This document shows positions 291 through 15,035 of a DNA stretch of 64,000 nt, piece by piece (position 1 is the first letter of the stretch; each line of letters starts with the position of its first letter). Source of the DNA: Gammaproteobacteria bacterium (GTDB lineage: Bacteria; Pseudomonadota; Gammaproteobacteria; Pseudomonadales; Pseudohongiellaceae); NCBI GenBank assembly GCA_029246545.1, contig JAQWMX010000018.1, positions 1 to 64,000 on the forward strand, given 5' to 3'. The position numbers and the translations under genes are program-made. The notes below the pieces were generated by a model. The model was given only the letters and a program-made list of their open reading frames with translations. It was not told the origin of the DNA and did no database searches.

Positions 291-1559
291 CTATTTATCT
301 TCAAAAATATCCAATGGCAAAATAGCTGTAACCCCTAGATTGGGTACGTCCACCAATTGTCCGATTCGAACATCAACCGCTACACTGGCGATTGCATAGG
401 CCTGTTGGCGATCGTAGCCGTATGTCTCGACGATATAGTCGACCATACCAGCGATGGCATTGCGAGTCGCGAGATTAATATCGTTGGAGAGGTTTTCTAA
501 TCCGGCGATTACGGGTGATCTCAGGTACATCATGTCCGGTGGTACAGAGCCAGCTTGTTTTAGTGGGAATCCGGTAACTGCATAGAAGCGCCGGGAGGGA
601 ATTTCCAACAAATCAGCGGAACCTTCATAGTGGGGACCGTGGGTTAGGTTTGGGCCGTCCTTCAGTACAGCTGTTGTAACCCAGACGTCGGCTGACATTT
701 CTATAGCCGTCCCAGAGACTTCCCCATCACCCTGAGCATAATGCAGATCGCCGATGGCCAGGCCGCAGCCATCGATATAGCAAGGTAGATAGATTGTAAC
801 GCCTGCTTGCATGTAACGAATGTCCATATTGCCGCCGTGCTCTCTGGGCGGAATAGTACGTAGGCATTCATTTATTGCACTGCCGTTGGTGCCGCAAAGC
901 TCAGCAGGATCGGCACTTTCCGCCAAGGGTAGAAATACCCTGCCACCAGCCTCAGACAGAGCTTGTTCACGGGCCAATATGTTTTGTAATTCTTCTGGTC
1001 CTGGAAGTGTGGTGACCACGCCGGGGAAACTGCCGTTAGGAATCTTTACACCTGGAAGGCCATCGGATACTGCATAGTTACGATTTAATCGCCAGATGAA
1101 TTGGCGTTGTCCATCCATCAGATCGCTAATAAAGCCGCCAATACCACTGTTGGTCCAGGCGTAACGGCCGGGGTCGATATTAGTTAGAGTCACAGCCAGT
1201 ACATCGCCGGCTTCGGCACCTTCAATATAGACTGGACCTGTCATAGGATGCACGCGACCAAAATCGGTAACAAAATTCTCAGGTTGCTGATCAGTTTGGG
1301 ACGCGATTGTACCAAGTACGTCAGCAGCGTCCCGCGTATGAAACAGAATGGTCTGGCCGGGTTCTGCTCGGGCTGTCATTGGAATGTCTGGATGCAGGCG
1401 ATTGATGCAACCGGGATCTTCGATGCAGTTAGCTCCCTCCCCACCAACAATTACAATGCTGCCCTCCGCAGCAAAAACAGCAGACGCTAAAAATTGCGTG
1501 GTAATAGCTGCAGAAATTAGAAGGAGCAATGCTCTCAATAATTTAGTGTTTAATGTCAA
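291..1559 (-). CDS. Exported acetamidase/formamidase family protein
   Basis: This belongs to the FmdA/AmdA amidohydrolase family, which hydrolyses formamide or short aliphatic amides to ammonia and the acid. Supporting stretches are GPVYIEGAEAGDVLAV, REHGGNMDI and GDLHYAQGDGEVSGTA, in family order. The frame opens further upstream at 1607, but a strong GGAGG (1566-1570) sits six bases before a TTG at 1557-1559, so I use that start (422 residues). It yields a clean signal peptide (LLRALLLLISAAITT ... SAVFAAEG), so the enzyme is periplasmic or secreted, unlike the usual cytoplasmic members. It stands alone between two copies of an inverted repeat. The substrate is not evident from sequence. Confidence 0.85.
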   Translation of the reverse strand: MTLNTKLLRALLLLISAAITTQFLASAVFAAEGSIVIVGGEGANCIEDPGCINRLHPDIPMTARAEPGQTILFHTRDAADVLGTIASQTDQQPENFVTDFGRVHPMTGPVYIEGAEAGDVLAVTLTNIDPGRYAWTNSGIGGFISDLMDGQRQFIWRLNRNYAVSDGLPGVKIPNGSFPGVVTTLPGPEELQNILAREQALSEAGGRVFLPLAESADPAELCGTNGSAINECLRTIPPREHGGNMDIRYMQAGVTIYLPCYIDGCGLAIGDLHYAQGDGEVSGTAIEMSADVWVTTAVLKDGPNLTHGPHYEGSADLLEIPSRRFYAVTGFPLKQAGSVPPDMMYLRSPVIAGLENLSNDINLATRNAIAGMVDYIVETYGYDRQQAYAIASVAVDVRIGQLVDVPNLGVTAILPLDIFEDK

Positions 1560-1708
1560 AATACACCTCCTGAATTGTTGTTCAATACAACTTACATGAA
1601 AAAACAAGAATGCTCTCTAAATGGATAATTTTTGCATCATATTCTGACATCATTGAAATTAAAATACGCAAATCTACAAGTCCGCCTTGGATAATAACCG
1701 GACATTCT

Positions 1709-1738
1709 AAGGTCCGCTTTGGGTCGAAAGCAGACATT
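1709..1738. repeat. Interspersed inverted-repeat element, copy 2
   Basis: This copy shares GTCCGCTTTGGGTCGAAAGC and the following AGACATT with the copy at 206-235, with one extra mismatch in the left arm (AAGG for AATG). Just upstream, 1677-1706 carries a decayed version (TCCGCC ... CGGACATT), suggesting nested or rearranged copies. No gene is associated with it. Confidence 0.7.
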
Positions 1739-1740
1739 AG

Positions 1741-1920
1741 CATTTTAATATTTCACTCAGTCGGCACCAATCTTTTAAGTTCTTCAATCCAGTTCGTGAT
1801 AGGCACTTGGCAGACTTTGCACGTTCTATCCGGGTCATGCTGATTCCTCCCGATGTTGAAGAGGGGATCAGTGTGATCAATCATGGCGGCAAGGTGTTGG
1901 TGCTTATTTATTGGCGCTAA
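1741..1920 (+). pseudogene. Possible gene remnant (C-terminal fragment)
   Basis: The 529 bases between the acetamidase gene and the next gene hold no convincing intact gene. One open stretch starts directly after the repeat at 1709-1738 and ends at TAA 1918-1920. It reads like a real protein end: LADFARSIRVMLIPPDVEEG and then a hydrophobic VLVLIYWR terminus, with no plausible start codon or ribosome binding site. It may be the tail of a gene cut by the repeat or by a deletion. I do not recognise the family. An overlapping minus-strand frame (1753-1944) is less protein-like. Confidence 0.3.
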
Positions 1921-2088
1921 CCTGCGGCTTGGCAAAATAGACACTGCCTCAGTAACGTCCTAACCAGCTACGAACCCGGAGGGTCCGCGCGTTATGCTAT
2001 TCACCTTTTCACTGCGCAAGATTTTACTAGCGGTGCATCAATGGTTTAGCTCGAAGCTCGAAGTCCCAGTGTCCTGTGATGATAATCC

Positions 2089-3222
2089 TTACTCATCGGG
2101 GTGCACGATGTAGACCTGAGTGAGAGTCATCTCCACGGCCCCGGATATGGCTGTGTTGGCACCGGTCTCGGGATCTGGATAGGCATCCGCCAACCGTTTC
2201 AGCGCAGTGTACTCCGATCCAGAGGAGCTCTGACCGTAGTTCTGATGATGCGAAGACCAACTGGTTCTGAACCGGTGATTGTACTGCTCTATATCGACAT
2301 ATCCCCCCATCAGCCCTTGCGCCACCTGCGACGTTAGCTTGAACTGAAACTGGAGATCCTTAAAAATGTGGTAGCCATCACTCACTCCGGGCTGTGACCA
2401 TGGGATTTTTGCTTGAGCAATCGGCTCAGTGGTCAGCACACCATCAACGATCTTACCTTTAACCTCCTCAACGAAGCTTTGGCCCCAACGGGCATCGACT
2501 CGTTGCGTGCCACCAGCACTAAAACCCACGCCAGTGGCGTCAGTGAGGAGGTTATCGAGGCCTCGGTAAGTAGTGACGGTTACGTCGTCGTCATTGACGA
2601 GATCATCCACACCCGACAGCTCGATCATCCAGCGGTTAGAACCATTGTTAATCATGAAAGCGTTTTCGAAAAACCAATACTGGCCGTCTTTGCGGTAGCC
2701 CGCAATACAACCGAGTGCACGGTATAGCTGGTTATCTATTCCCTCTTCACCGGCCGAGTTCATGAAATCATCAGCGTTAACTTCACCATCGAGATTCAGG
2801 CCGTAGGATACATTCCCCTGTGCCTCGTAATAAGGTAAGGAATCATATATGTCTGTCGTCGCTGTATTAGTATGATACTGATAGGCCTCAATCATGAGTC
2901 GAGTATCAACTACTGTCCGCTCTACATCGCTATCCTCGGGGAACTGTTGTGCGAACAGGTCGCGCGAGCCTCGGGTGTTCATACCTTGAGGACATTCTGT
3001 GCTCGCTTCAGTTTCATGGATTGCCCAATGCCTTTCTGTCAGCACGTAGCCGATTCGGCCATCTTTTTGATGTGGTTCGGGAAGCTGGGCTGTCGCCGCA
3101 CCTGCAAACGCCAACATGGTGCTAAAAAATGCGAAAGAAAGCACTTGAGGTGTTTTGGTAGCATTCCAAACTTGTGGCATTGATAATCTCTCCTTCGTAG
3201 ATAATGGTTTCATCACACTCAT
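2089..3222 (-). CDS. Secreted protein of unknown function, last gene of the redox cassette
   Basis: I do not recognise this 377-residue protein. It has an N-terminal hydrophobic stretch (VLSFAFFSTMLAFAG) ending in ATAQ, a typical signal peptidase site, so it is exported. The mature part is acidic, rich in Asp, Asn, Tyr and Trp, and has few cysteines (two are visible, at ECPQG and GCIAG). The first ATG (3220-3222) overlaps the upstream stop as ATGA, implying translational coupling. An internal ATG at 3178-3180 has a better spaced AAGGAG and would give a shorter, more normal signal peptide (363 residues), so the start is uncertain. It is co-directional with the Lipoprotein_15 and DUF1552/DUF1592 genes and probably belongs to the same system. 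Confidence 0.75.
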   Translation of the reverse strand: MSVMKPLSTKERLSMPQVWNATKTPQVLSFAFFSTMLAFAGAATAQLPEPHQKDGRIGYVLTERHWAIHETEASTECPQGMNTRGSRDLFAQQFPEDSDVERTVVDTRLMIEAYQYHTNTATTDIYDSLPYYEAQGNVSYGLNLDGEVNADDFMNSAGEEGIDNQLYRALGCIAGYRKDGQYWFFENAFMINNGSNRWMIELSGVDDLVNDDDVTVTTYRGLDNLLTDATGVGFSAGGTQRVDARWGQSFVEEVKGKIVDGVLTTEPIAQAKIPWSQPGVSDGYHIFKDLQFQFKLTSQVAQGLMGGYVDIEQYNHRFRTSWSSHHQNYGQSSSGSEYTALKRLADAYPDPETGANTAISGAVEMTLTQVYIVHPDE

Positions 3223-4622
3223 CTCCTAAAATGATTATTTTGAAAAACGTCTCGCAATACGAACGCTTTGTAGCCGTTGCGTGAACCAGTGAACTCTCCG
3301 AACCCATCGCCATAGGTAGCGCCGGGTTCTTGGTCACCGCTGTAAGTGTATACCGGCCTGCTGCGGTAAGCCCAAACATGCAGCGTGCCTTCTTCGTCTT
3401 CGGCGGAGTGGCGTCCTGTGTTTGGATCAATTGCCATCACGCTCCAAAGACTACTCTCACTCTTGGCACCGGCGTCCGCGACAACATAGGGAAAGGTCTC
3501 ACGACACACCTCGGGTTCACCACCACCGCAAATAGCCATACGATATTCCTGTGCCGAATCGGGATGATCGCAAGCGAGTTGCGCAACGGAATCGTCCCTG
3601 CAGTTATAAAGGTATATCGTTCTGCCCCGGGCATCGGCCAGAACCTGCCCCCCAAAGGCCCCATCTTGTATGGTGAACTCATCGGGCGGAGTCACTGCTC
3701 GTTGCGTGTAAACATTATGCCACTCTGGCACATCGCTACCGGCAAAGCTGCGACTTCGAGTATCTTTGTTATGGGTGTACAGCGGCTTAGCTCTGAAGAC
3801 CCATTGATTAATTCCAGAGGAATGTTCAATGATTGTCCAGTCACCGCTGTCTACTGTAACCTGAGGTGCACGGACGGGGGACCAATTGTTCAAACACTCT
3901 CCATGACAATTCGAGATATTGGCTTCGTCACCGTCCCATGTGTATACCGAGTATTCATCGCCAGTTACGAGTAATCGGCCGGTGGTGCTGGAAAGCACTT
4001 GAAACCCTGGTGGAATATTGGCTGGCGGCCCCACCGGCACACGAACGACTCCGCCATCACCGCCGGATCTTATCTTTGTGCCACCTAGCACGTCCCCTGG
4101 CTTCTCATCCAGGTTGGAGGTATACAAAGGGAAACCATCATAGGCCCATTGGTTTGAGTCATCCTCTCGCTTGACAAGAGTCCACTTACCCACCTGCTCC
4201 GCATCTTCAGGTGCGAGCACGGGCGGCCAAATTTGAGTACAGCTCACGCCCTGGTCGGAATACGGCAGGACCAAGCCGGCCGGGTATGGACTCATGAAGC
4301 CAACCTCAGTCCGAAGGACCTCGTCCGTACAATTGGAGGCCCCGTCCTTCCTGTCACCAGTTGAACCGTTTCGCAGCGCTCTCAGTGGCCATGTATACAA
4401 TGTGCGCCCCTGAGTATCGGTGTACACAGGACCATCCAAGGCAGTCGCCACCACCTGAATACCTAGCGGCAATTCCTCTTCAAAGTAGGCTTCATGTGCG
4501 TCACTGGCCACTGATTGCCAATACATCGTATCGCTTGGCGTTTCAGCGGCAGCACTAGCAGTGATCACCATGGGCGCACTGGCGACAACGAAAACAACAG
4601 TCAGAAAATTATTTAGGTGCAT
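3219..4622 (-). CDS. Secreted Lipoprotein_15 (COG4315-type) repeat protein
   Basis: A signal peptide (MHLNNFLTVVFVVASAPM ... SAAAE) is followed by three diverged copies of the secreted repeat known as Lipoprotein_15. Each copy has the pattern GRTLYTW / cysteine / W-P / GxWT-xx-(D/S)-xxxQWAYxGxPLYT. The clearest pieces are WTLVKREDDSNQWAYDGFPL, YTWDGDEANISNCHGECLNN and QWVFRAKPLYTH; the third copy ends in HVWAYRSRPVYTYSGD. The family has no established biochemical role; its members are exported and often sit beside cytochromes or other redox proteins. There is no lipobox cysteine at the signal cleavage site here. The stop overlaps the start of the next gene as ATGA. AAGGA lies 11 bases before the start. 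Confidence 0.8.
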   Translation of the reverse strand: MHLNNFLTVVFVVASAPMVITASAAAETPSDTMYWQSVASDAHEAYFEEELPLGIQVVATALDGPVYTDTQGRTLYTWPLRALRNGSTGDRKDGASNCTDEVLRTEVGFMSPYPAGLVLPYSDQGVSCTQIWPPVLAPEDAEQVGKWTLVKREDDSNQWAYDGFPLYTSNLDEKPGDVLGGTKIRSGGDGGVVRVPVGPPANIPPGFQVLSSTTGRLLVTGDEYSVYTWDGDEANISNCHGECLNNWSPVRAPQVTVDSGDWTIIEHSSGINQWVFRAKPLYTHNKDTRSRSFAGSDVPEWHNVYTQRAVTPPDEFTIQDGAFGGQVLADARGRTIYLYNCRDDSVAQLACDHPDSAQEYRMAICGGGEPEVCRETFPYVVADAGAKSESSLWSVMAIDPNTGRHSAEDEEGTLHVWAYRSRPVYTYSGDQEPGATYGDGFGEFTGSRNGYKAFVLRDVFQNNHFRR

Positions 4623-4658
4623 ACTAATGAGTTTCCTTAATTACTCGGACAGGCCTGC

Positions 4659-5993
4659 TTAGACCAGCACATCGCTAATCACTTCAGAACACTCGTTGCT
4701 CAACGTGCCCCACGATGGCGTGTCCACCCCCATGAGTCTTAGGGCTGTATAGCCCACCTGAGCAACCGAACCGCCATTCAAATCGATGTGGTTACCGCTC
4801 TTAACCTTGCCACCCGCGCGACCGGCCAGGAATACCGACATGCCATCGATCGAATGCGTCCGAGCGTTACCCACGTCCGTCGTACCGAGGATCAGGACAT
4901 TATCAAGCAGCGTGCCATCTCCTTCCGGAATTTTTTTAAACACCTCCACGAAATCCACCCAAGACTCCATGGCACGCCGGGTGAAATAGGAAGCGTTCAG
5001 CTGGTAGCCAAGCGCCTCGTCGACGGGTTCTTCATGTGTGCACGTATGGTGAGGCTTCTCATAACCCGGTTTAATAGTGGAAGAAAACGCCGCCGAATAC
5101 GTCATGTTGAAAACGCGGGTTTGATCGCAGGCAACGGCCATAGCCATCAGTTCGGCCATCATTTGATGGCGAAGCTTAATCGAGTCTGTTGACTGGTCCA
5201 TGGCCACATCAACCGGTGCCTCCCCGGGGGGCATGCAACTCGCAATCGGTTCGGGCTTGGTGAGACGTTGCTCAAACTGCCGCTCCAACTGACGCAAACC
5301 AGTAAAATACTGATCGAGCCGCTCCCGGTCCGCTACGCCGACCGTCTCCATCAGTGAGCGCTCTTGGTCCATGATGCCGGACAGAACGCTTCGGCGAGCG
5401 ATTACTCGTGGGTCCTGCTGAAATTCGTCTGCATTCGGATTCTGAAAGTCGAGCCCAAACAAACGTTGGTAAAATGCCAAGGGCGACCACTCTGGGGCAT
5501 TGGGCGTAGAGGCGTTGTAGTAACTATATGTGTCGCGCGCATCGGCAGTCGCCGTCGCGGTAAGGTTAGTAAAGCGCGTGGCGCCGCCAATCTGCTTGGC
5601 TACCGTTAGATCGATGGTCTCTGACGGTCCAGAACCGGACTCCGGTGCAATACCTGTTCTCGAAACCACCCAGCCAGTGAAATGGTTTCCGTTCGGGGAA
5701 GCGTCCCGAATGGCGTGCCCGTTCGTGAAGAGATTGACGTCATCGCGTATTGGTGCCCAAGAGGCGAGCTCTTCAGGCAAATCGTAATTGGGGCCTGTCT
5801 GTTGAGGCACAAACAGCTTCCTAGTGCCGCCAAGACCGTAGCCCCAGGTTCCGAAACGCTCTGGCATCGGCGCCCCCGAAGCCAGTGCAGTACCATTGCC
5901 GTTCAGGAAATAGTCAAGAAAGGGCAAAGCTACCGTCACTCCCACGCCTTTCACCATACCCTTCATTACACGTCTTCTATCCCATTTACTCAT
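4659..5993 (-). CDS. DUF1552 family protein with Tat leader
   Basis: The 444-residue protein starts MSKWDRRRVMKGMVKGVG, a twin-arginine leader, then follows the DUF1552 layout. That layout comprises PMPERFGTWGYGLGG near the start, NHFTGWV, a central Asp/Gln-rich helical region and VLILGTTDVGNARTHS plus LAGRAGGKVKSGNHI in the C-terminal half, which resembles the sulfatase/phosphatase-like fold of these proteins. The Pfam entry for this family is named after an HXXSHH motif; here the corresponding place reads HHTCTHEEP, so serine is replaced by threonine and the last histidine by glutamate. AGGAG lies seven bases before the ATG. DUF1552 genes are typically paired with DUF1592 genes, as here. 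The enzymatic activity is not established for the family. Confidence 0.88.
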   Translation of the reverse strand: MSKWDRRRVMKGMVKGVGVTVALPFLDYFLNGNGTALASGAPMPERFGTWGYGLGGTRKLFVPQQTGPNYDLPEELASWAPIRDDVNLFTNGHAIRDASPNGNHFTGWVVSRTGIAPESGSGPSETIDLTVAKQIGGATRFTNLTATATADARDTYSYYNASTPNAPEWSPLAFYQRLFGLDFQNPNADEFQQDPRVIARRSVLSGIMDQERSLMETVGVADRERLDQYFTGLRQLERQFEQRLTKPEPIASCMPPGEAPVDVAMDQSTDSIKLRHQMMAELMAMAVACDQTRVFNMTYSAAFSSTIKPGYEKPHHTCTHEEPVDEALGYQLNASYFTRRAMESWVDFVEVFKKIPEGDGTLLDNVLILGTTDVGNARTHSIDGMSVFLAGRAGGKVKSGNHIDLNGGSVAQVGYTALRLMGVDTPSWGTLSNECSEVISDVLV

Positions 5994-6061
5994 GTTGATT
6001 CTCCTGCCTTAAAAATTTCATTGGTTCTTGAAGTACACCAGCTCTCTAGTTAACGATTGCA

Positions 6062-7780
6062 CTAGTCTGAGCTGGCCGCCGCTAGCAGTCTCTCTTCGCT
6101 CGGGCTATTTTGGATCAGCGAGAAGGCCTTGCTGAGAACGATCGTCCGCAATAGGTTTCGCAACTGGTAGCCTTGAGCGGCAAACTCCTCATTGAAGTAG
6201 TTCAGTGTGGGGCGCGCCTCGATTTCCGGTGGCCCGCCAGTGGCGTAACTGTAAACACGCTGCACGAGACATCGTGGCAACTCCGGGTTCTGACGAAGTG
6301 CTTCACCCAAACCAATAGCTCCATCGAATTCAAAGCCATCCAGAGCGCCGGTCGCGTCTATTGTCGCCTCATTTTCGGTCAGCCGGTAACCACCCGCACC
6401 GTCAAATTGCTCCAGCGACAAACCAATTGGGTCTGTAATCCTATGGCAGCCGGCGCACGAGGGGGTCTCGAGATGCGCTGCTACACGTTGGCGTTGCGTA
6501 GGGTAGTTCGCATCAGGGTTCGTCAAAACAGAGAAATCGATTCCCGGAGGCGGCTGGGGAACCGTCTGGCACAAAAACTGCTCCCGTAGCGCCATACCCC
6601 GAAGCGTTACAGAACTGCGCCCGGGATGCGAAGTCAACGCTAGAAAGCTCACTTGTGTAAGGAGACCCGCGCGCGGACTGTCTTCTGCAAATGTGTAAGA
6701 GGCCCAACCAGGTTGTGCGGGCACACCGTATACAATTGCCAAGGCCGGAGACATAAAGGTCGACCGCGATGTAAACAGATCACGATAATCTTTGTCTTTG
6801 TTGAGCGTGTGATCGATGATCGTGCGCAGGGTTTGCTCCTGCGCATCCAGCGCCGTCACAGTTGTGAAACCCGGGTAGATGGTGGCGTCCTTCACGAGCG
6901 TCTTGATCTCGTTGAAAACGAACATGTCATCGAAGAAGGCCCTCATCCCATCGACCAAACGCGGGCTCTCCAACATCCTGTCAACGGCCCGCTCAATACC
7001 ATCACGTGTCAGCAGTTCACCGCTTTCGGCTGCTGCCAGTAATTCATCATCCGGACTTGCATTCCACAGGAAAAAGCTTAGCCGTGACGCGAGCGAATAA
7101 CCGTCAAGGCGCAGTTGCTCCGGATTGCTGGGGTCAGGCTCGGCGCTTTCTATGATGAAAAGCACTTCGGGATGGATCAACAGCCCTTCGAGCACAACCT
7201 CGAGGCCAGCATAAAAGCCATCCAACTCCTCACCATTCAACTCCTCGCCCGCCAATTCCTCGGCAGCGGCACTCGCCTGCTCAACGAATACCGCAATTTC
7301 GTCATCAATCAACGCGCGCCTGAACAAAAGGCGGCCTACCTTCGACACAAACTGGGTCGCGCAAGCCTCATCCGGCCCATCAATCGACTCAGGTCGGCAC
7401 GCAACAAGGTATTGACGTTGCTCGATATCCATGACCTGACTGGCCACGGTGGCGGCTATGCCCTGGATAGTCTGAACTTGCCCGACACTTACACCTGCAG
7501 TAGCCAAACTGTTGGCGAGCAGCCCCTCATTCCGCACGATGGGCGTAAATTGTACTTGCGTGTCAATGCTTGGACCGAAAATGTAGGCCAACGAATTGCT
7601 ATACTGCTCAGCCGTAATGAGCTTGGTTAGCAGCTGCGTTCCTGAGCTTGTGGGTTCAGGGTCGGATGGAGAGCAGCCAGTAAGAGCGCACAAGGCCAAC
7701 AAACCCATCACGGCCCTGTGAAACGCGCTGGTAAAACACTGCTTAAACCTCGGTGTAGAACGTCCCATATCCAAACTCAT
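6062..7780 (-). CDS. DUF1592/DUF1588 haem-binding lipoprotein (Planctomycete-cytochrome type)
   Basis: The modules appear in the order DUF1587 (LITAEQYSNSLAYIFG), DUF1595 (FVSKVGRLLFRRALIDDEIA), DUF1592 (SLASRLSFFLWNASPDDELL), DUF1588 and DUF1585 (GLSLEQFDGAGGYR). A single c-type haem motif, CAGCH, sits in the DUF1588 part about residue 445. The N-terminus has a lipobox LTGC at residues 33-36, so the protein is probably an outer- or inner-membrane-anchored periplasmic lipoprotein. GAGGG lies nine bases before the ATG. The family was first seen expanded in Planctomycetes; its substrate is unknown. The DUF1552 gene follows directly, and the cytochrome c and HiPIP genes precede it, which suggests electrons leave through those carriers. 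Confidence 0.88.
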   Translation of the reverse strand: MSLDMGRSTPRFKQCFTSAFHRAVMGLLALCALTGCSPSDPEPTSSGTQLLTKLITAEQYSNSLAYIFGPSIDTQVQFTPIVRNEGLLANSLATAGVSVGQVQTIQGIAATVASQVMDIEQRQYLVACRPESIDGPDEACATQFVSKVGRLLFRRALIDDEIAVFVEQASAAAEELAGEELNGEELDGFYAGLEVVLEGLLIHPEVLFIIESAEPDPSNPEQLRLDGYSLASRLSFFLWNASPDDELLAAAESGELLTRDGIERAVDRMLESPRLVDGMRAFFDDMFVFNEIKTLVKDATIYPGFTTVTALDAQEQTLRTIIDHTLNKDKDYRDLFTSRSTFMSPALAIVYGVPAQPGWASYTFAEDSPRAGLLTQVSFLALTSHPGRSSVTLRGMALREQFLCQTVPQPPPGIDFSVLTNPDANYPTQRQRVAAHLETPSCAGCHRITDPIGLSLEQFDGAGGYRLTENEATIDATGALDGFEFDGAIGLGEALRQNPELPRCLVQRVYSYATGGPPEIEARPTLNYFNEEFAAQGYQLRNLLRTIVLSKAFSLIQNSPSEERLLAAASSD

Positions 7781-7842
7781 CGTTCTAAACCCTCATCAAC
7801 AATCTAAATTTACCAGAAAGAGTAATTATCCACTGAGCCTTC

Positions 7843-7992
7843 TCAGACTGTCAACTCTATGTATGAGTCAATCACATATTGCACTTTGGTTGATGCTTGA
7901 TAAGCATTTATAACTTTTTGCTCACCAGACGCCTCGGACTTGGAATTGTGGGTAGCGCACCCAACCGTTAGAATCGCCAAGCTGAATAACAA
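7843..7992 (-). CDS. Possible small lipoprotein (about 49 residues)
   Basis: The 300-base gap between the tri-haem cytochrome gene and the DUF1592 gene contains one open frame from TTG (7990-7992) to TGA (7843-7845). It reads LLFSLAILTVGCATHNSKSE and then a short polar, lysine/glutamine-rich tail. The hydrophobic run followed by VGC resembles a lipoprotein leader, although Thr-Val-Gly-Cys is a poor lipobox because the -3 residue is threonine. AAGGA is only two bases from the TTG, so initiation is doubtful. It is either a genuine small gene of the cassette or a decayed one; I see nothing else in the gap. Confidence 0.35.
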   Translation of the reverse strand: MLFSLAILTVGCATHNSKSEASGEQKVINAYQASTKVQYVIDSYIELTV

Positions 7993-8081
7993 GATCCTTG
8001 GGCTTATTTGATCACTCTTGATTCCTGTTGAACGAAGCCACTATGCAGCAAATAGGTAACACGTTCCCGGGTGGGTATTAG

Positions 8082-9383
8082 TTAGCGCTGCTCCGCGACC
8101 TGTTCCGAGGTGACTGCTCCGGCCTCATGTCCCCACGACGCGCGAATGAAACTTAGTAAAGCCGCCACCTGTTCATCGTCCAATTTATTTTCGAAAGGCT
8201 CCATACGTATCCATGCCCTCGACGCCCATTCGTCCGATGGAGAAGTATGTGGAGTTTGAGCTCCGTATAAGGTGATATTAATTAGCGATGTCGGATCCAC
8301 GTCTAGAACCACAGGACTGCCAATCAACGGAGGGCCTTGCTCTGGTGCTCCTTCTCCCGTCGGTAAATGGCAGCTGCCACAATGGATGTCGTACTGTATT
8401 GAGCCAGCGCGCAAGACATCGGCTGATGCTGGCTCTCCGCTGTCTAGAGAATTAGCCGGCAAGCTTTTCAGGTACACGGCCATCGCACGCACATCTTCTC
8501 TAGACAGATGTCGGGTGCTATTCACTACCACTTCGTTCATTGGTCCGAATACGCCGGCACGATGGCTAACGCCGAGTTTCAGATAATCCGCAATATCGTC
8601 GACAGACCACATCGCCAGACCACTATCCGCTGAGGTGAGGTTAGGCGCCGACCAAGCCGACAGCTTCCCCTCGATGCGGGCCATGTATGTTCCACCAGTC
8701 ATTGCAAGATCATTGTCATTTGCGCCCAGGAAATTCCGCGGTGTGTGGCACATGCTGCAGTGACCCAAGCCTTCAACCAAATAGGCGCCGCGATTCCACT
8801 CTGCCGATTGCTCCGGCTGCGGTTCAAAGGGATTATCGTCGTGGTACATCCATTTCCAAAGACCCAAGGCCCAACGTTGGCTATACGGAAAGCCAAGATC
8901 ATTCTCAGGCGGCGTGTACGATACGGGTGCGATGGTCTTGAGGTAGGCGTAAATTGCCGCAATATCCTCGTCACTGACTTTCGCAAACGCGGTATAGGGG
9001 AAAACAGGATATAGGTTCGTACCATCAGGTGCTTCGCCGTGCCTCATCGCGTTGGTAAAATCTTCAAGGCTCCACTGGCCAATGCCGGTCTCTGGATCGG
9101 AAGTAATATTTGTCGAATACACCGTTCCAAAAGGCGTTTCAAACTCAAGCCCACCTGCAAAAGGGCTATCGTCGCCATTCGTATGGCAGCTCATACAGTT
9201 GCCCGCCGCAACCAGATACTCACCTTTTTCTTCCACCTCAGACAGGTTAGCCGCATCGGCGGGGCTCGATAAGCTCACCATGACGGCAGCAATACCCGCT
9301 GTCACCACCATGCTATAGAATTTACTAAATCTGTATGCCTTAGGGAGCCGGCTCGGCCCGCCGGGTCTGAGTTGAAACGTCAT
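8082..9383 (-). CDS. Tri-haem membrane-associated cytochrome c
   Basis: The mature protein has three c-type haem motifs: CMSCH (about residues 63-67), CSMCH (209-213) and CGSCH (335-339). This is the architecture of the cytochrome subunit of membrane gluconate, sorbosone or alcohol dehydrogenases of the AdhB type. Typical family stretches include TPFGTVYSTNITSDPETGIG, GAYLVEGLGHCSMCHTPRN and LTSADSGLAMWSVDDIADYL. The frame opens upstream at a GTG (9449), but the ATG at 9381-9383 gives the sensible leader, with a hydrophobic stretch (YSMVVTAGIAAVMVSL) before PADAAN. No dehydrogenase flavin or quinoprotein subunit is adjacent; instead a HiPIP gene precedes it and DUF1592/DUF1552 genes follow, so it may accept electrons from these. 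Confidence 0.88.
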   Translation of the reverse strand: MTFQLRPGGPSRLPKAYRFSKFYSMVVTAGIAAVMVSLSSPADAANLSEVEEKGEYLVAAGNCMSCHTNGDDSPFAGGLEFETPFGTVYSTNITSDPETGIGQWSLEDFTNAMRHGEAPDGTNLYPVFPYTAFAKVSDEDIAAIYAYLKTIAPVSYTPPENDLGFPYSQRWALGLWKWMYHDDNPFEPQPEQSAEWNRGAYLVEGLGHCSMCHTPRNFLGANDNDLAMTGGTYMARIEGKLSAWSAPNLTSADSGLAMWSVDDIADYLKLGVSHRAGVFGPMNEVVVNSTRHLSREDVRAMAVYLKSLPANSLDSGEPASADVLRAGSIQYDIHCGSCHLPTGEGAPEQGPPLIGSPVVLDVDPTSLINITLYGAQTPHTSPSDEWASRAWIRMEPFENKLDDEQVAALLSFIRASWGHEAGAVTSEQVAEQR

Positions 9384-9495
9384 TATTTCACTTCGATTTT
9401 CTTGACAGGTTGTTATCCACAATAAATTACGTTCTCGGAGCCAAAGCACCGAAATCTATATTCCCGGGTGATACTAGGACAGGCTGATGTAGACC

Positions 9496-9831
9496 TTAAG
9501 CATCAACACTCCACGAGTCGCAATAGCCGCCCGGATTTACCGGCTTTCTGGCGAATATTTCGCACGATCCGCATCCACCGTCTTGCGCTGGAGCATTGAA
9601 GAAAGCGCAGCTAGCGCACACTTTGGAAGAGCCATGCGGCGAAATTTCCGTATACTTTAATGTACGGCGAACACTTTCTTCCGCTGAAGTCATCATATTC
9701 AGGTCGGCACAGACCATTGCGCTGCTGCTCCCGTCGTTGCCACATGCGGCCAGCCCGAAAAAAACACTCCCTCCAAACGGTATCTGGAGGCCGCGCTTGA
9801 GAATGGTGCGGCGAGAAATTCTCTTATCCAT
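9496..9831 (-). CDS. High-potential iron-sulfur protein, Tat-exported
   Basis: This small 111-residue protein has the HiPIP cysteine spacing at C72-x2-C75, C90 and C104 in KVCASCAFFNAPAQDGGC followed by GSCEIFARKPVNPGGYCDSW. It would bind one 4Fe-4S cluster working between +2 and +3 and shuttle electrons in the periplasm. The leader contains SRRTILKRG, a Tat motif, as expected for a protein folded around its cluster in the cytoplasm. The leader ends LAAC (residues 27-30), which looks like a lipobox, so it may be a Tat lipoprotein tethered to the membrane. AGGAG lies five bases before the ATG. It is the first gene of the co-directional redox cassette. Confidence 0.92.
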   Translation of the reverse strand: MDKRISRRTILKRGLQIPFGGSVFFGLAACGNDGSSSAMVCADLNMMTSAEESVRRTLKYTEISPHGSSKVCASCAFFNAPAQDGGCGSCEIFARKPVNPGGYCDSWSVDA

Positions 9832-9841
9832 ATTGACTCCT

Positions 9842-9903
9842 AAGTATAAAGTATAGCGAAGTATAAAAGGTACAAAAGGTATAAAGTATGGGAAGTATAA
9901 AAG
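9842..9903. repeat. Short direct repeats (GTATAAA) upstream of the HiPIP gene
   Basis: Within about 60 bases the word GTATAAA occurs four times (roughly 9844, 9861, 9880 and 9895), mostly as AAGTATAAA, with related GTATAG and GTACAAAA between. The block lies immediately upstream of the HiPIP ribosome binding site. It may be slippage-derived sequence or a multi-site regulatory region. The remaining stretch to 10182 is AT-rich and shows no gene; a weak CCTGCAA/TTGCAGG hairpin lies near 10060-10082. Confidence 0.55.
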
Positions 9904-10182
9904 CCCTCTCCAAATAAGTCAGCAAAAATTCTGTATGTGAATCTTGCCTTTAATTTGCAAGAGATTGATTGCCTACCCTAACATTTCTCTAAACCTTTGC
10001 TTTTCCCCCTTCTACCTTCTTCTTTTTTAACCACTAGCTTTCACTGAACCAGCGCTCACCCTGCAAGCCATGATTTGCAGGTGAAGCAAGTCTTTAGTGG
10101 ATGTTAATAGGCTTTAAATATAGGGGTTTTATAGAGTTCATGCGGGCTAAAAGACTGTTGTGGACTTTGTAGTTTCTTAGAA

Positions 10183-10267
<85 letters not shown>

Positions 10268-10280
10268 ACACAGGCGGCGT

Positions 10281-10286
10281 AGTATA
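10281..10286 (-). promoter_or_regulatory. Probable -10 element of the tRNA-Leu promoter
   Basis: On the minus strand TATACT lies about 14 bases upstream of the mature tRNA 5' end and is followed by a GC-rich discriminator (ACGCCGCC), as expected for a stringently controlled stable-RNA promoter. The -35 is weak. Confidence 0.5.
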
Positions 10287-10374
10287 CCCGAACTTATTTC
10301 AGAATGCCTCACAAAAAATGTTAGTTATTTCATTTTTTTGACGGAGAAGTGTGGTGAGATTTTGCAGCTAAGTT

Positions 10375-12921
10375 TTACTCAGCTCTGAGTAATTGTAAGG
10401 GTTTTAGTTTTAGTACAGACATGGTTGCTACTAATGCAGTGACCACACTTAAAGCTGAAATAGCAAAAATACTAAAAAACGTAATGCCCCAGGACAAGTT
10501 CCAGATGCTATCGAAAATGAACCAGGAAATAGCATAGGAAATTAGTAAACTCATACTAACGCCAACCAAGGCTGCAAAAAAACCCAGAATGCCGAATTCA
10601 ATTTGAACCATAGTTCTCACATCCTTAAAGTTGGCGCCGAGTATTTTTAATAGATTGATTTCCCAGAAGCGAGTCTTTACCTCATAACGGGCAATAGAAA
10701 ATAGAACGACCAAGCCAGCAAAAATCGCCAAATATGCCATCACTTTAATGCCCCAACTTATTTGATTGGTGATATCAAGAATGCTGGCAACCAGTTGGCC
10801 AACATTGATTATCGAAATGTTAGGCAGGGTTTCGACTATTTCATTCTGTATGCTCAAATGCTGTTCTTCAGGTACATTACTGACTGCAGCAATAAATGTT
10901 TTCGGTGCAGGGTCGAGTACTCCGGGTTGAAAAGAAATAAAGAAATTAGGTTGAAATGAATTCCAGTCTACCGTGCGCAAATTCATTACTCTTCCGCTTA
11001 TCGGTACGCTTTGAACATCGAAACTAATAATGTCACCGACCTCTGCATTAATTCGTTCAGCAAAGTCTAGCTCCAAGGAAATTCCAGGCAGTTCATCTGA
11101 GCCAAAGACCCACGGGCCTTCCCAAACTTCGCCTGCCACAAGTTCTTCGGAAGTTTTCAGCGTATCTTGATAAGTCAGATTGACTGAGCGACGGCGTTGT
11201 CTTTGTTCATCAGGAGTTTCTTCAAAATCATCTATTTCACCAGCATTAATACTTTCCATCCGAGCCCGTACCTGTGGTGATACAAAGGCCAGTTCATGGC
11301 CATAGCTGTCTAGAATAGTCTCTAGGGGTTCCAGTTGATCAGGTTGTATATCAAACATAAAGAAATCTGGTACTGAAAAATCATCGGGTTGAGAAATTTC
11401 CTCTTGTAAGCCTTTTTCTATTTGTGGGATTAGATTAATTAGTAAGGAACCAAGTCCGATAGCCAGAAAACAGGAAATCGCGCCTAAACGATTGCGGCTT
11501 AAATTACGTAGCGCAAGTTTTTGGGTAACTGAAGAATGATTAGAAAATGAACCGCAAAATTTGAGTATATACCAGGCGACAATGCCGAGAGTAAAAATTG
11601 CCACAAGAAATGAGGTAATAAAAAGACTGCCTATTAGCATGGAACTGGATTGCCAGATGGCCAATAACCAGAACACAATTAGTATAGGTGCATAACTTGC
11701 TGCATGTCGTTGCCAATGTGGTAATGACTTGCTGGGTTGAATTTTTTCATGGAAAAGAGCGATTGGGTGCAGATCGTAAATTTTCGACAAGATAGGCAAG
11801 CAACAAATTACGCTACCAATAGTGCCCAGAAATAAAGCTAATATAAAAGAGCTCAGCTCCATCTGGTTTTCAAAACCCCGCGGTAAAAAATTTTCGAACA
11901 AACTAGGTAATACCGGCATAGTTAAATAACTAATGGCACTGGCAATACCTGCACTAATAGCACCAAGTAGCACAATTTGTATCAAGGTCATCAAATAGGC
12001 TTGTTTCGGAGTGCCCCCAAGACACATCAATATTGCCATATCCTTAAAGCGGCTGGTAAAGAATGAACGAAATAGATAAGCAGCTCCAACACCAGCCAGA
12101 AATAAAGCAATTAGAGCAATTAGTCCTAGATAGTCATTCATGTAGGCCAGAATGCGCCCTAGATCTTCACTGCGTTCTTGATGAGTTGTCATGCTGATGC
12201 GCCGGGTATCACCGAGAATATCTAATTCGGCCTGGCGAAATTCGTCTTCCCAGCTATCCATATTTACATCTTCAGTAAATTTGTAAAAGCGAGAATAATT
12301 GATGCGACTACCTAACTGGATTAGCCCAGTTGCTGCTACCTGATCTAGTCCCATATATATTGCCGGGAAATTAGACATCACAGAAATCGTACTGCTGGGG
12401 TCAATGTCGATAATGTCGCTAATGATGTATTCCTCAGCACCTATAGTGATAGCGTCACCTAGGTTTAAGCCCAGTGTTAGCATTAGGCTTTCTGCTACCC
12501 AGATAGAATTACTACTAAACAGTTGTTGGCGTAACTCATCAGTCAGAATGCCGCCTTCTCGCAGCACAAATTCACCGTATTGGGGGTAATTTCCATCAAT
12601 ACCAATGAGCTGACTCATGCGTGAGGCTTGATTGCCTGCCACCATGGAAAGAAAAGAAATCTGATCAGAAAACTCATAGTCGGCATTAAAAATATTATCA
12701 GCCAAATCAAACTCAAGGTCAGTTAGTGGGGCATTACCTGAAATTTGAGCATCAGCCGTAAGAATGGCTCTGGAATTATTATTCAAATGCGCATCAATTG
12801 AATTCTTAAAGGAATCCAGAGCAATAAACCCTATCAAGCCAATCGATAAGTTGATTATAAAGAAGAGACTAAAGCGGAAATTATTAGTAATTTCCTTGAG
12901 GGCGAGTTTTAACCAAAGCAT
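10375..12921 (-). CDS. ABC transporter permease, YbbP/FtsX family
   Basis: This 848-residue permease has the MacB/FtsX-type layout of the YbbP group. An N-terminal membrane helix (SLFFIINLSIGLIGFIAL) is followed by a periplasmic domain, a block of helices in the middle (GLIALIALFLAGVGAAYLF, ILIVFWLLAIWQSSS), a second periplasmic domain and C-terminal helices (MAYLAIFAGLVVLFSIARYE). Such proteins move lipids or lipid-like molecules out of the inner membrane rather than importing solutes. Its start overlaps the stop of the ATPase gene as TAATG. The TesA gene lies upstream on the same strand, the tesA-ybbA-ybbP association known from enterobacteria. Confidence 0.88.
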   Translation of the reverse strand: MLWLKLALKEITNNFRFSLFFIINLSIGLIGFIALDSFKNSIDAHLNNNSRAILTADAQISGNAPLTDLEFDLADNIFNADYEFSDQISFLSMVAGNQASRMSQLIGIDGNYPQYGEFVLREGGILTDELRQQLFSSNSIWVAESLMLTLGLNLGDAITIGAEEYIISDIIDIDPSSTISVMSNFPAIYMGLDQVAATGLIQLGSRINYSRFYKFTEDVNMDSWEDEFRQAELDILGDTRRISMTTHQERSEDLGRILAYMNDYLGLIALIALFLAGVGAAYLFRSFFTSRFKDMAILMCLGGTPKQAYLMTLIQIVLLGAISAGIASAISYLTMPVLPSLFENFLPRGFENQMELSSFILALFLGTIGSVICCLPILSKIYDLHPIALFHEKIQPSKSLPHWQRHAASYAPILIVFWLLAIWQSSSMLIGSLFITSFLVAIFTLGIVAWYILKFCGSFSNHSSVTQKLALRNLSRNRLGAISCFLAIGLGSLLINLIPQIEKGLQEEISQPDDFSVPDFFMFDIQPDQLEPLETILDSYGHELAFVSPQVRARMESINAGEIDDFEETPDEQRQRRRSVNLTYQDTLKTSEELVAGEVWEGPWVFGSDELPGISLELDFAERINAEVGDIISFDVQSVPISGRVMNLRTVDWNSFQPNFFISFQPGVLDPAPKTFIAAVSNVPEEQHLSIQNEIVETLPNISIINVGQLVASILDITNQISWGIKVMAYLAIFAGLVVLFSIARYEVKTRFWEINLLKILGANFKDVRTMVQIEFGILGFFAALVGVSMSLLISYAISWFIFDSIWNLSWGITFFSIFAISALSVVTALVATMSVLKLKPLQLLRAE

Positions 12922-13586
12922 TAGATAAATTTACCGTCTTGTAAACGAAGCTGGCGGCTGCAACGTAAAGCAAGTTGTTCATTATGGGTTACAAATAATA
13001 AGGTCATTTTTTGCTGATCCACTAACTCAAAAATCATGTCAGTAATATATTCACCCGTAGCATTATCTAGATTTCCAGTTGGTTCATCGGCCAATAAAAT
13101 ACTCGGTCTGACAACCATGGCACGAGCAATAGCGACGCGTTGGCATTCTCCTCCGCTTAATTGATAAGGAAAGTGATGGACACGATGACCTAAGCCTACC
13201 TGCTCTAAAGTCTCTTGAGCCTTAGCTATGGAGTCCTTGTCTTTGAATAGGTCTAATGGCAAAGATACATTTTCTAAAGCAGTAAGGTGAGACATCAAAT
13301 GGAACTGCTGAAAAATTATGCCAATGTTTTGAGCCCGAAAAGTTGAGAGTTCTTCTTCACTCAAGCTATGCATGTTTTGTTCATTTAATGAGATTTCACC
13401 AGAGCTAGGACTATCCAAACCGGCTAATAAAGTGAGCAGTGTTGATTTACCACTGCCAGATTGGCCTAAAATGGCCACTGTTTCAGCTGCTTCCATCTGT
13501 ATATTTAAGTCTTTGAGAACTTGAATGGATTCGTTTCCAGTCGCGTTTTCAAAGTTTTTATTTAGATTACTTACTTCGAGAATCAT
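12921..13586 (-). CDS. ABC transporter ATP-binding protein, YbbA-like
   Basis: All nucleotide-binding motifs are present: Walker A GQSGSGKST near residue 42, Q-loop FQQFHLMSH, signature LSGGECQ, Walker B ILLADEPTG and the switch histidine in FVTHNEQ. The 221-residue length and the LolD/MacB-type EPTGNLD stretch fit the YbbA subgroup. It is translationally coupled to the permease gene (TAATG overlap) and starts eight bases after the tesA stop, so tesA-ybbA-ybbP form one operon here, whereas in E. coli tesA is divergent. Confidence 0.9.
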   Translation of the reverse strand: MILEVSNLNKNFENATGNESIQVLKDLNIQMEAAETVAILGQSGSGKSTLLTLLAGLDSPSSGEISLNEQNMHSLSEEELSTFRAQNIGIIFQQFHLMSHLTALENVSLPLDLFKDKDSIAKAQETLEQVGLGHRVHHFPYQLSGGECQRVAIARAMVVRPSILLADEPTGNLDNATGEYITDMIFELVDQQKMTLLFVTHNEQLALRCSRQLRLQDGKFI

Positions 13587-13594
13587 GAACTTCC

Positions 13595-14206
13595 TTAAGG
13601 AATGAGAGGTAATAAAAATTGATAAACATGTTCGGCAACTATACGGCTGCCTTCAATATTCGGGTGTATGCCATCTGCCTGGTTCAGCTCAGCGATACCA
13701 GCTACATCCTGTAATAGAAAAGGCATGAAGTCTAGTTCAAATTCTTCAGCTAAGTCTGGGAAAACCTGAGCAAATGAAGAGCTGTATTCTTGTCCCATAT
13801 TTGGCGGGGTAAGCATACCTGTCAGAGCCACTTTAACACCATTAGATTGCGCAAATTCTATGGTCGCTGATAAATTGGCTTTCATATTTTCGACGTTTAG
13901 ACCGCGTAACCCGTCGTTTGCGCCCATTGACAGTATTACTAGATCTGGCTGAGAACGGATGTACCATTGCATGCGTTCTAAAGCGCTAGCTGAGGTGGAA
14001 CCGCTAATGCCAGCATTTATAATTGAGATGTTGTTGTGGCCCTCAGATTTTAAACGCTGATTAATTAGATTAGGGTATGCCTGTTCGGCTTCCAGGCCAA
14101 GACCTTCGGTCAGTGAATCCCCCAAAAAGAGCACGGTGAAATTTTCCTGAGCCTGAACTACGGGGGCAGCTAATAAGAGTAGGTATATGATTACTTTTTT
14201 AAACAT
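13595..14206 (-). CDS. tesA: Periplasmic SGNH esterase/thioesterase, TesA-like
   Basis: After a signal peptide (MFKKVIIYLLLLAAPVVQAQ) the SGNH blocks follow in order: GDSLTEG with the nucleophile serine, the glycine of INAGISGST, GANDGLRG with the oxyanion asparagine, and DGIHPN with the catalytic Asp and His. The 203-residue length is that of E. coli TesA, a periplasmic lysophospholipase, arylesterase and acyl-CoA thioesterase. The natural substrate is probably a lysophospholipid or ester; its operon with a lipid-type ABC exporter supports a role in envelope lipid turnover. Confidence 0.9.
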   Translation of the reverse strand: MFKKVIIYLLLLAAPVVQAQENFTVLFLGDSLTEGLGLEAEQAYPNLINQRLKSEGHNNISIINAGISGSTSASALERMQWYIRSQPDLVILSMGANDGLRGLNVENMKANLSATIEFAQSNGVKVALTGMLTPPNMGQEYSSSFAQVFPDLAEEFELDFMPFLLQDVAGIAELNQADGIHPNIEGSRIVAEHVYQFLLPLIP

Positions 14207-14410
14207 CGGTGCATCTTATATTAATCGGTTCGATTTTATAGCTTTTAATCGTGCAAAAAATGTCGAAGGGTTAGCTGTAAGTTTTGAATCTTAATTTTAA
14301 ATTAACCTTCTGGTTTTATAATTCTTAATAATCAAAGCTTTTGCTTAATTGTGACCTAGATTGTTCATCTTCTTTTTTCTTACACAGTTCTAATTTAGAA
14401 TATGATTATA

Positions 14411-14439
14411 TTGACTATTATAAAATATACTAGTATAAA
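14411..14439 (+). promoter_or_regulatory. Sigma-70 promoter of the padR-RND operon
   Basis: TTGACT (14411-14416), a 17-base spacer and TATAAA (14434-14439) match the consensus closely, with the start codon of the PadR gene about 40 bases downstream. The -10 is overlapped by a palindrome, see the next entry. Two direct copies of AATTAATCC follow. Confidence 0.65.
14426..14437. promoter_or_regulatory. Candidate PadR operator over the -10 box
   Basis: TATACTAGTATA is a perfect 12-base palindrome covering the end of the spacer and the first bases of the -10 hexamer. PadR-family regulators bind short palindromes in their own promoters, so this is the natural candidate for autorepression. This is inferred from position and symmetry only. 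Confidence 0.4.
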
Positions 14440-14477
14440 TTAATCCAATTAATCCAATTGTATTGAATTTACGTAAA

Positions 14478-15035
14478 ATGAATATTAAAACTCTTTGTCT
14501 AGCAGTTCTGAGCCTTGGTAAGGCCTCTGGTTATGATATTGGCAAAAGGCTAGAAGAGCCTTTCGGTCATTTCGTAGATGTGGCTCGTAGTGGTGTTTAT
14601 CCAGTACTTAAAATTTTGGAAGAAGAAGGGTTGGTTCAATTTGAGAATATAGAGCAAACGGCACTTCCTAATAAGAAAATTTATGAATTAACATGTAAAG
14701 GAAGAGGCTTTTTGAAAGCAGAGCTGGAGGTACTTCCACCAACTCATAAGATTCGTTCGCAGTTTATGTTGCTGGTATTTTTCGCCGAAATGCTTTCTCA
14801 AAAACGACTAGAAACAATTTTTAAAGAAAGAATTGAAGAAATGGAATGCTTTTTGCAAGAAGAGCCTTATTGGCAAAAAATGGTTGAAGGTAATAAAGGT
14901 CAGGAGTTCTTACTTGAGTATGTGCAAGCCAAAGCAATATTTGAAAAAGAATTCCTAGAGAAAAACTCAGGAAAATTAATGGATAGTTTAAGTACAGAAG
15001 TAATGGAGCAGGAATTTGAGAATAGTTATGAATAA
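14478..15035 (+). CDS. PadR family transcriptional regulator
   Basis: The N-terminal winged helix is recognisable: CLAVLSLGKASGYDIGKRLE, then SGVYPVLKILEEEGLVQF, the typical PadR sequence around the recognition helix and wing, and a C-terminal Vir-type helical region used for dimerisation (about residues 85-185). The frame is open from a TTG five codons earlier, but the ATG at 14478 gives the usual MNIKTLCLAVL start. Its stop overlaps the start of the membrane-fusion gene by eight bases. It most likely represses the efflux operon it heads and is released by a toxic ligand. Confidence 0.88.
   Translation: MNIKTLCLAVLSLGKASGYDIGKRLEEPFGHFVDVARSGVYPVLKILEEEGLVQFENIEQTALPNKKIYELTCKGRGFLKAELEVLPPTHKIRSQFMLLVFFAEMLSQKRLETIFKERIEEMECFLQEEPYWQKMVEGNKGQEFLLEYVQAKAIFEKEFLEKNSGKLMDSLSTEVMEQEFENSYE

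Follow-up and report, generated by a model that had tools for sequence, protein, structure and literature searches.

The first 64,000 nucleotides of contig JAQWMX010000018.1 (assembly GCA_029246545.1, a gammaproteobacterium of the Pseudohongiellaceae), hereafter the window, carry six neighbouring genes for exported proteins (Table 1), and the locus raises the question of whether these proteins form one system and, if so, what it does. From 5' to 3', all on the minus strand, the genes encode a high-potential iron-sulfur protein (HiPIP), a tri-haem c-type cytochrome (CYT), a haem lipoprotein with DUF1592 (D1592), a Tat-exported DUF1552 protein (D1552), a secreted protein of Lipoprotein_15 repeats (LP15) and a secreted protein of no named family (UNK); all six open reading frames (ORFs) are intact. 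Their coordinates, common direction and Pfam families agree with the initial annotation. So does the export of all six products, by Tat, lipobox or hydrophobic signals that we read by eye from the sequence, without a predictor, and so do the cofactor signatures: a HIPIP domain, three CxxCH motifs in CYT and one in D1592. The cassette is real, co-inherited and apparently mobile, and is of the X132/PSCyt3 and DUF1552 type, which is already known but functionally unexplained. By analogy, it looks like a stripped-down form of the redox machine of cellulose-eating bacteria, carried by many marine bacteria.

Relatives of UNK were found in 17 of 95 related genomes, the window's own included, and also at 78 loci on contigs of named genomes, two of which (L119 and L121) lack any core gene and were taken as spurious. 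A profile search with five of the proteins covered 80 sequences, namely these 78 loci (L044-L121), the window and a second cassette of the same genome (L024). Many of these contigs are short; UNK was matched above its score floor in 77, LP15 in 71, D1592 and D1552 in 61 each and CYT in 31. At least 6 kb on either side of UNK is available at 41 loci (L024 and 40 of L044-L121; the window, with UNK 2 kb from the contig end, falls outside this set), and among these D1592 and D1552 are both present in 37, LP15 in 38 and CYT in 23. One or more of the four core genes (D1592, D1552, LP15 and UNK) are missing from six: L044 and L048 are half-cassettes, L101 has UNK only, L117 and L120 are without LP15, and L099 is the sixth. 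These are counts of loci, not of independent events, as some overlap or share a genome (e.g., L074/L091).

The commonest order, CYT-D1592-D1552-LP15-UNK, recurs in 24 of the 77 UNK loci, window and L024 included; distant loci have D1592-D1552-UNK alone or UNK-D1592-D1552-LP15. Pairwise gene-distance correlations, computed for the 24 loci in which each of the five genes is present once and once only, were 0.82-0.93; with shuffled labels, the correlation between UNK and D1592 never exceeded 0.54 in 1000 trials. Because of the co-occurrence in loci with full flanks and the distance correlations, the genes behave as one system and are co-inherited. The single-system reading of the initial annotation has thus survived the checks of gene order and pairwise co-occurrence that it had itself proposed: the genes are inherited together in related genomes rather than scattered. 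At L105, two frames are needed to cover D1592, two to cover D1552 and three to cover UNK, which suggests either a decaying copy or sequencing errors.

Horizontal acquisition of the cassette as a single unit is strongly indicated. At third codon positions, the six genes have a G+C of 0.53-0.61, versus 0.33-0.37 in the four window genes measured to their right. A tRNA-Leu gene at the edge of the acquired DNA and its adjoining FtsX gene are syntenic in the same-genus genomes G001-G004, similarity to which ends between 10183 and 10073, and no cassette stands next to tRNA-Leu in the stretches of these genomes that were seen (for G002 only 1.6 kb to the contig end); the stretch fetched from G005 contained no tRNA. 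On another contig (L025), G004 keeps UNK and part of LP15. UNK is 85, 86 and 80% identical to its relatives in G053, G037 and G049, which belong to another genus, versus 76, 77 and 74% for release factor 3; G032, in contrast, has 68% for UNK and 76% for release factor 3, which runs counter to transfer, and in G024 (UNK 77%) a full-length release factor 3 match was not found. Transfer between genera is thus indicated by these identities for one genus only, not for all.

D1592 connects the cassette with described proteins. Besides an LTGC lipobox, it has Pfam matches to PSD4/DUF1592 (5.1e-32), PSCyt3/DUF1588 (1.3e-26), PSD2 (1.3e-13) and PSD5 (7.7e-9), and among 37 sequences C442, C445 and H446 of its haem motif and a further histidine, H436, are invariant, with H385 kept in 92%. 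Its predicted model is confident and mainly helical (mean pLDDT 88.8); against PDB folds it gave no Foldseek match with E <0.001 and a best VIA Z of 5.3, in a search that may, by the tool's own warning, fail to detect single domains of so long a model, and its profile had no match among PDB sequences.

At locus L129, D1592 is fused to a carbohydrate-binding module (CBM), CBM2, and to cytochrome domains. Positions 768-833 of this protein weakly match the X183 domain of Cbp2D (PDB 7b21, whole-sequence E 1.3e-4), and are followed by DUF1587 (864-927) and by a PSD5-to-PSD2 block (944-1350). Cbp2D of Cellvibrio, a protein of growth on cellulose, is described as having FN3, DUF1587, X183 and X132, with one CxxCH each in X183 and X132, in the portions cited here of Branch et al. 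(PMC8981238). Because the domain order in L129 matches that described for Cbp2D, D1592 is most probably a free-standing X132-type domain, an assignment made by order and not by direct alignment with the X132 of Cbp2D. In the multi-domain redox proteins Cbp2D, TERTU_2913 and TERTU_3803, an X132 with one C-terminal CxxCH corresponds by order to the PSD5-PSD4-PSCyt3-PSD2 arrangement of D1592, which in contrast is a separate lipoprotein without CBM, X183 or DUF1587 (Pfam found neither CBM nor X183 in the window's chain). Its partners differ as well, being D1552, LP15, UNK and an AdhB-type cytochrome, and no AA10 lytic polysaccharide monooxygenase (LPMO) was found in the genome.

According to the parts of the Teredinibacter paper concerned with X132 (PMC10916295), no homologue of this domain is characterised structurally or functionally; a passage of a 2025 Cellvibrio paper (PMC12542752) lists it among domains with no known role, and what Cbp2D-like X132 proteins do in the oxidation of polysaccharides by bacteria is treated, in the passages cited (PMC8981238, PMC10916295), as an open question. 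In freshwater Verrucomicrobia, PSCyt3 genes with PSD domains usually adjoin a gene family of unknown function, as reported in a main-text section of PMC5615132. The PSCyt3/PSD genes of Planctomycetes and Verrucomicrobia share with the cassette both these domains and an unknown-family neighbour, whereas LP15, UNK and an AdhB-type cytochrome are not named as partners in that main-text section. To call the system undescribed was to overlook the CAZy X132 and Cbp2D literature and these PSCyt genes beside unknown families. UNK and LP15 are, as far as our searches reach, newly recognised regular partners of X132/PSCyt3 with DUF1552. The cassette would represent the X132 part in small, with neither CBMs nor a detected LPMO. 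It points to DUF1552 as the usual neighbour of that part and to a route by which electrons may leave for the quinone pool, and it replaces a domain of large proteins that are hard to express by a set of five or six genes open to expression and deletion.

The D1592-D1552 pair is not confined to this cassette, and its partners differ between lineages. A class-wide sample had DUF1552 in 3 of 114 genomes and a phylum-wide one in 8 of 398, and DUF1592 was found in 4 of the 114, with the window's genome in each count. Ten convincing D1552 genes were taken outside the UNK-selected set (L127, L129, L130, L146 and L194-L199; L146 entered by chance from a flank search, and a match in G589, 22 bits in a 940-residue frame, was left uncounted), and D1592 directly adjoins nine. 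The exception is the D1552 on contig C10 of the window's own genome, in which a D1592 on C12 is likewise alone within 20 kb. Fusions of D1592 include a starch-binding CBM26 with a GSDH sugar-dehydrogenase domain (L196, L198) and Ig- and PKD-type domains (L197, L199). The pair stands beside a pyrroloquinoline quinone (PQQ) dehydrogenase in L146, and in L195 the order UNK-D1592-D1552 is followed by cytochrome c'. Genome G103 has a weak D1592-like gene (25.7 bits) adjoining a protein read by eye as DUF1501. Ahead of the second, divergent cassette of the window's genome (L024, 364-12587 on C15) lie three genes of a molybdenum hydroxylase, including one for a Tat-type 2Fe-2S subunit (the third was read by eye). 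As a separate observation, the CBM2 protein of L129 (locus 7958-14616) has a region like the haem subunit of flavocytochrome c (3vrd_A) and is followed by D1552 and then by a flavoprotein gene, read by eye, that could possibly supply the matching flavin subunit of a cellulose-bound flavocytochrome.

D1552 carries the Tat signal RRRVMKG and scores 145.3 bits against DUF1552/HXXSHH (gathering cut-off 30). Its motif is HTCTHEE, where some relatives read HxxSHH; the H-x-x-[ST]-H core is present, and the final His of the literal motif is Glu, a position at which nine other members have H in two, E, G, Q, R, N and Y in one each and, in L170, no motif match. H104, D128, H316, H320, H380 and H402 are invariant among 26 cassette-type sequences. 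With the Tat region removed, hhalign gave probabilities of 77.9% to DUF1501 and 67.6% to sulfatases over the same C-terminal region, 44.3% between DUF1501 and the sulfatases, and no more than 1.0% in nine control comparisons with unrelated or reversed profiles. The likeness lies in the C-terminal metal-site region, LLDN..TTD...H, and D1552 differs in having no sequence-level match to a solved structure (a single PDB match of its profile, E 0.77, was taken as chance) and no identified sulfatase nucleophile. D1552, which had been read as a redox component, is instead probably a sulfatase-like, metal-hydrolase-like member of the alkaline-phosphatase (AP) superfamily and not a redox carrier. That neither DUF1552 nor DUF1592 has an established reaction still holds within the literature searched: none was found under single family or domain names, and no text naming both families together was found.

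CYT belongs by sequence to the AdhB / GDH-beta / fructose-dehydrogenase (FDH) type of cytochrome. PDB chains 8gy2_B (3.7e-88), 8hdd_B (2.9e-87), 7w2j_C (1e-73) and 8gy3_A (2.9e-58) cover residues 48-449 of its 455, a near-full-length homology, and CYT has three haem motifs (CMSCH, CSMCH and CGSCH) after an ordinary hydrophobic signal. Such cytochrome subunits of membrane-bound, quinone-dependent alcohol, glucose, fructose and aldehyde dehydrogenases carry electrons from the dehydrogenase to ubiquinone. CYT differs in having no large dehydrogenase subunit with PQQ, FAD or molybdenum beside it: none of the eight products encoded at 291-12921 was recognised by Pfam as a PQQ, GMC or molybdenum dehydrogenase. 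The starts of relatives suggest that CYT more probably begins at the ATG at 9383 than at 9449.

HiPIP combines a domain score above the cut-off of its family (PF01355) and a CASC motif with later cysteines with a feature that sets it apart, an apparent lipobox (LAAC) after the twin-arginine RRTILKRG, and is a probable lipoprotein. It lies 5' of CYT in the window, G024 (L030/L048) and G032 (L031), before UNK in L108 and on the opposite strand in L035/L103, L084 and L085; since its position and strand vary in this way, it is an optional part of the cassette. Of the chain of cofactor carriers drawn at first, HiPIP and CYT are present, the former only as an option and the latter as a cytochrome of known type with a known electron direction.

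UNK, as had been stated, matches no family: there is none in Pfam or NCBIfam, nor a PDB sequence match by phmmer. It has an ordinary hydrophobic signal, conserved motifs CPxGxN, LDG, GIDN and GC and, among 54 sequences, two invariant cysteines. Structure prediction, which covered UNK and D1592, suggests a beta-barrel with helical insertions (mean pLDDT 84.4); the model had no Foldseek match with E <0.001, and its best VIA Z of 7.1 to avidin/lipocalin-like barrels (3ew2_B, 110 residues, 4.5 A) is too weak to name the fold. A quinohaemoprotein amine dehydrogenase domain in the same list (1jju_A, Z 5.9) was too weak as well and was not used. UNK defines an unnamed protein family tied to the D1592-D1552 pair in gamma- and apparently alphaproteobacteria. 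LP15 has an ordinary hydrophobic signal and several repeats with conserved cysteines; NCBIfam NF040526 (SCO0930_lipo) matched it weakly, below the cut-off, and one PDB match of its profile (E 0.19) was taken as chance.

Our preferred reading, to which we give a probability of roughly 0.4, is that of a horizontally acquired, exported and membrane-associated oxidation module made up by the six genes. Its conserved core would be the D1592 haem lipoprotein, D1552 as a Tat-exported metalloprotein, the UNK barrel and the LP15 repeats. Within the periplasm or at the outer membrane, D1552, UNK and LP15 would bind or process an organic substrate that is soluble. Electrons from this substrate would pass to the haem of D1592, on to the AdhB-like tri-haem CYT and to ubiquinone, and HiPIP, where present, would serve as an additional or alternative acceptor. 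Complex formation, metal content, the catalytic protein, electron direction and the substrate are what we infer in this scheme, which is favoured because of the co-inheritance, the type of CYT and the redox setting of the D1592-D1552 pair elsewhere.

Several points weigh against it. The cassette has no recognised dehydrogenase, CYT is absent from 18 of the 41 loci with full flanks, and it may serve another enzyme. The loci were selected by UNK, and shared host ancestry inflates the distance correlations, as does the distinct pair formed by the window and L047. The predicted model leaves the haem role of D1592 without a structural clue, given the lack of a significant PDB fold match. Moreover, an AP-like fold of D1552 would argue for hydrolysis over oxidation, an assignment itself below certainty: with the Tat region kept, hhalign gave 98.1% to DUF1501 and 38.3% to sulfatases, and an earlier profile from fewer sequences gave 4%, aligning the Tat region only.

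Conceivably, D1592 and D1552 are themselves an exported dehydrogenase not recognised so far, which would feed the AdhB-type quinone-reducing cytochrome directly in place of the PQQ, flavin or molybdenum subunits known to date and would have UNK as a regular subunit. We put this forward tentatively; if true, it would make the large X132 proteins of cellulose degraders tethered forms of this enzyme.

A serious rival, and a possible one, is a system led by a hydrolase. D1552 would here be a metal-dependent esterase, phosphatase or sulfatase-like enzyme with an exported substrate, and the haem proteins would sense or protect it or take part in a following step, in line with the AP-superfamily signal from hhalign. 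Exported hydrolases are also frequent neighbours of the cassette: a creatininase-family protein occurs in 26 of 99 sequences (the window and L024-L121, several being one place fetched twice). In five near relatives, a gene for an HpcH/HpaI-like protein with a signal or anchor adjoins the cassette upstream, a gene that the window lacks; the HpcH/HpaI family is usually cytoplasmic. Against hydrolysis as the leading activity stand the haem protein D1592 directly beside nine of the ten D1552 genes outside the UNK-selected set, which makes the haem partner look near-obligatory, and the sulfatase nucleophile not identified in D1552.

Electrons could also run the other way, a direction that we consider unlikely: quinol or HiPIP would then supply them, by way of CYT and D1592, to an acceptor outside the cell, for example a copper oxygenase, as has been proposed for Cbp2D. 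The X183 domain of Cbp2D is able to reduce LPMOs, as described in the portions cited of PMC8981238, and D1592 probably corresponds to X132 in such proteins. The case for an LPMO as the acceptor is weakened because LPMO_10 (PF03067) was found in none of 15 genomes, a search that covered 14 of the 17 UNK-bearing genomes (without G015, G044 and G052) and G167, which has the D1592-D1552 pair only; PF03067 was matched in 1 of 14 control genomes, and other LPMO families and acceptors lie outside this search. The window's D1592 has, as said, no CBM, and the Teredinibacter results appear inconsistent with LPMO donation in the relevant part of that paper (PMC10916295). That the genes stay together through shared movement and not joint action, in a hitch-hiking or decaying island, would fit the higher G+C, the tRNA-Leu edge, the absence at the site in four same-genus genomes and the relics in the window and G004, and is very unlikely in view of the six intact ORFs, the same order in loci titled NOR5-3, Pseudohaliea, Woeseiaceae and OM182, related orders in Rhodospirillaceae-titled loci and the second, divergent cassette kept on C15.

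The initial annotation described the genes as tightly packed. LP15 and UNK do overlap by four bases (ATGA) and three other gaps measure 36-112 bases, but CYT and D1592 are 301 bases apart, and the set is to that extent less tight. This gap contains the relic of an SBP56-like gene (59% over 32 residues, E 2.9e-7, to a gene of G024, L030), which is intact in G024 directly after CYT, between CYT and LP15 (Pfam SBP56 2.2e-5, below the cut-off). The promoter-like sequence 5' of D1592 matches 11 of 12 promoter positions and is weak alone, given five such sites in the scan versus a shuffle mean of 7.2; neither promoter nor terminator scans gave more sites than shuffles. Because similar sequences precede D1592 in several relatives (compared by eye), the cassette may comprise two transcription units.

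Table 1 Features of the cassette and its surroundings (window positions unless a locus is named)
Feature	Position	Strand	Basis or remark
HiPIP	9831-9496	-	First gene of cassette; Pfam HIPIP PF01355 8.8e-9
CYT, tri-haem c-type cytochrome	9449-8082	-	Pfam Cytochrom_C 9.2e-23, 2 stretches; three CxxCH
SBP56-like relic (5' end of gene)	7912..8007	-	tblastn with intact gene of a relative
Promoter-like TTGACA-18-GATAAT	7825..7854	-	5' of D1592
D1592, lipobox haem protein	7780-6062	-	PSD5-PSD4-PSCyt3-PSD2, one CxxCH
D1552, Tat-exported DUF1552/HXXSHH protein	5993-4659	-	Pfam HXXSHH/DUF1552 4e-42
LP15, secreted Lipoprotein_15 repeats	4622-3219	-	Pfam Lipoprotein_15 1.9e-31, 3 stretches
UNK, secreted family-less protein	3222-2089	-	No Pfam or NCBIfam family
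tRNA-Leu	10183..10267	-	Edge of acquired DNA
HpcH/HpaI-aldolase-like proteins beside cassette	L026 14665-15522, L027 3561-4418, L030 8884-9792, L031 3710-4573		Pfam on L026, L030

A possible seventh gene fell away on both counts: the candidate in the 301-base gap is the relic, and an amidase to the left was rejected as a member, not being found in L024-L121. Among neighbouring genes elsewhere, those of the creatininase family are mostly divergent upstream of CYT (L051-L110). The cassettes of G024 (L029/L030) lie among homogentisate and phenylacetate genes, and those of G024 and G032 (L031) have HPPD, DAHP synthase and an Lrp-type regulator nearby (several names by eye); a link to such substrates was dropped, HgmA occurring in 2 of the 99 sequences, both from G024, and HPPD and DAHP synthase in G024 and G032 only. 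The amidase of the window (291-1607) is an exported acetamidase/formamidase-family protein (FmdA; PF03069 7.8e-78, signal-like N-terminus), and the G+C of its gene, 0.49, is likewise above that of the genes to the right of the cassette. It is flanked by 41-base repeats at 202-242 and 1705-1745 (88% alike), with a third, weaker copy at 1673-1713, and gene and repeats possibly constitute a separate mobile gene cassette.

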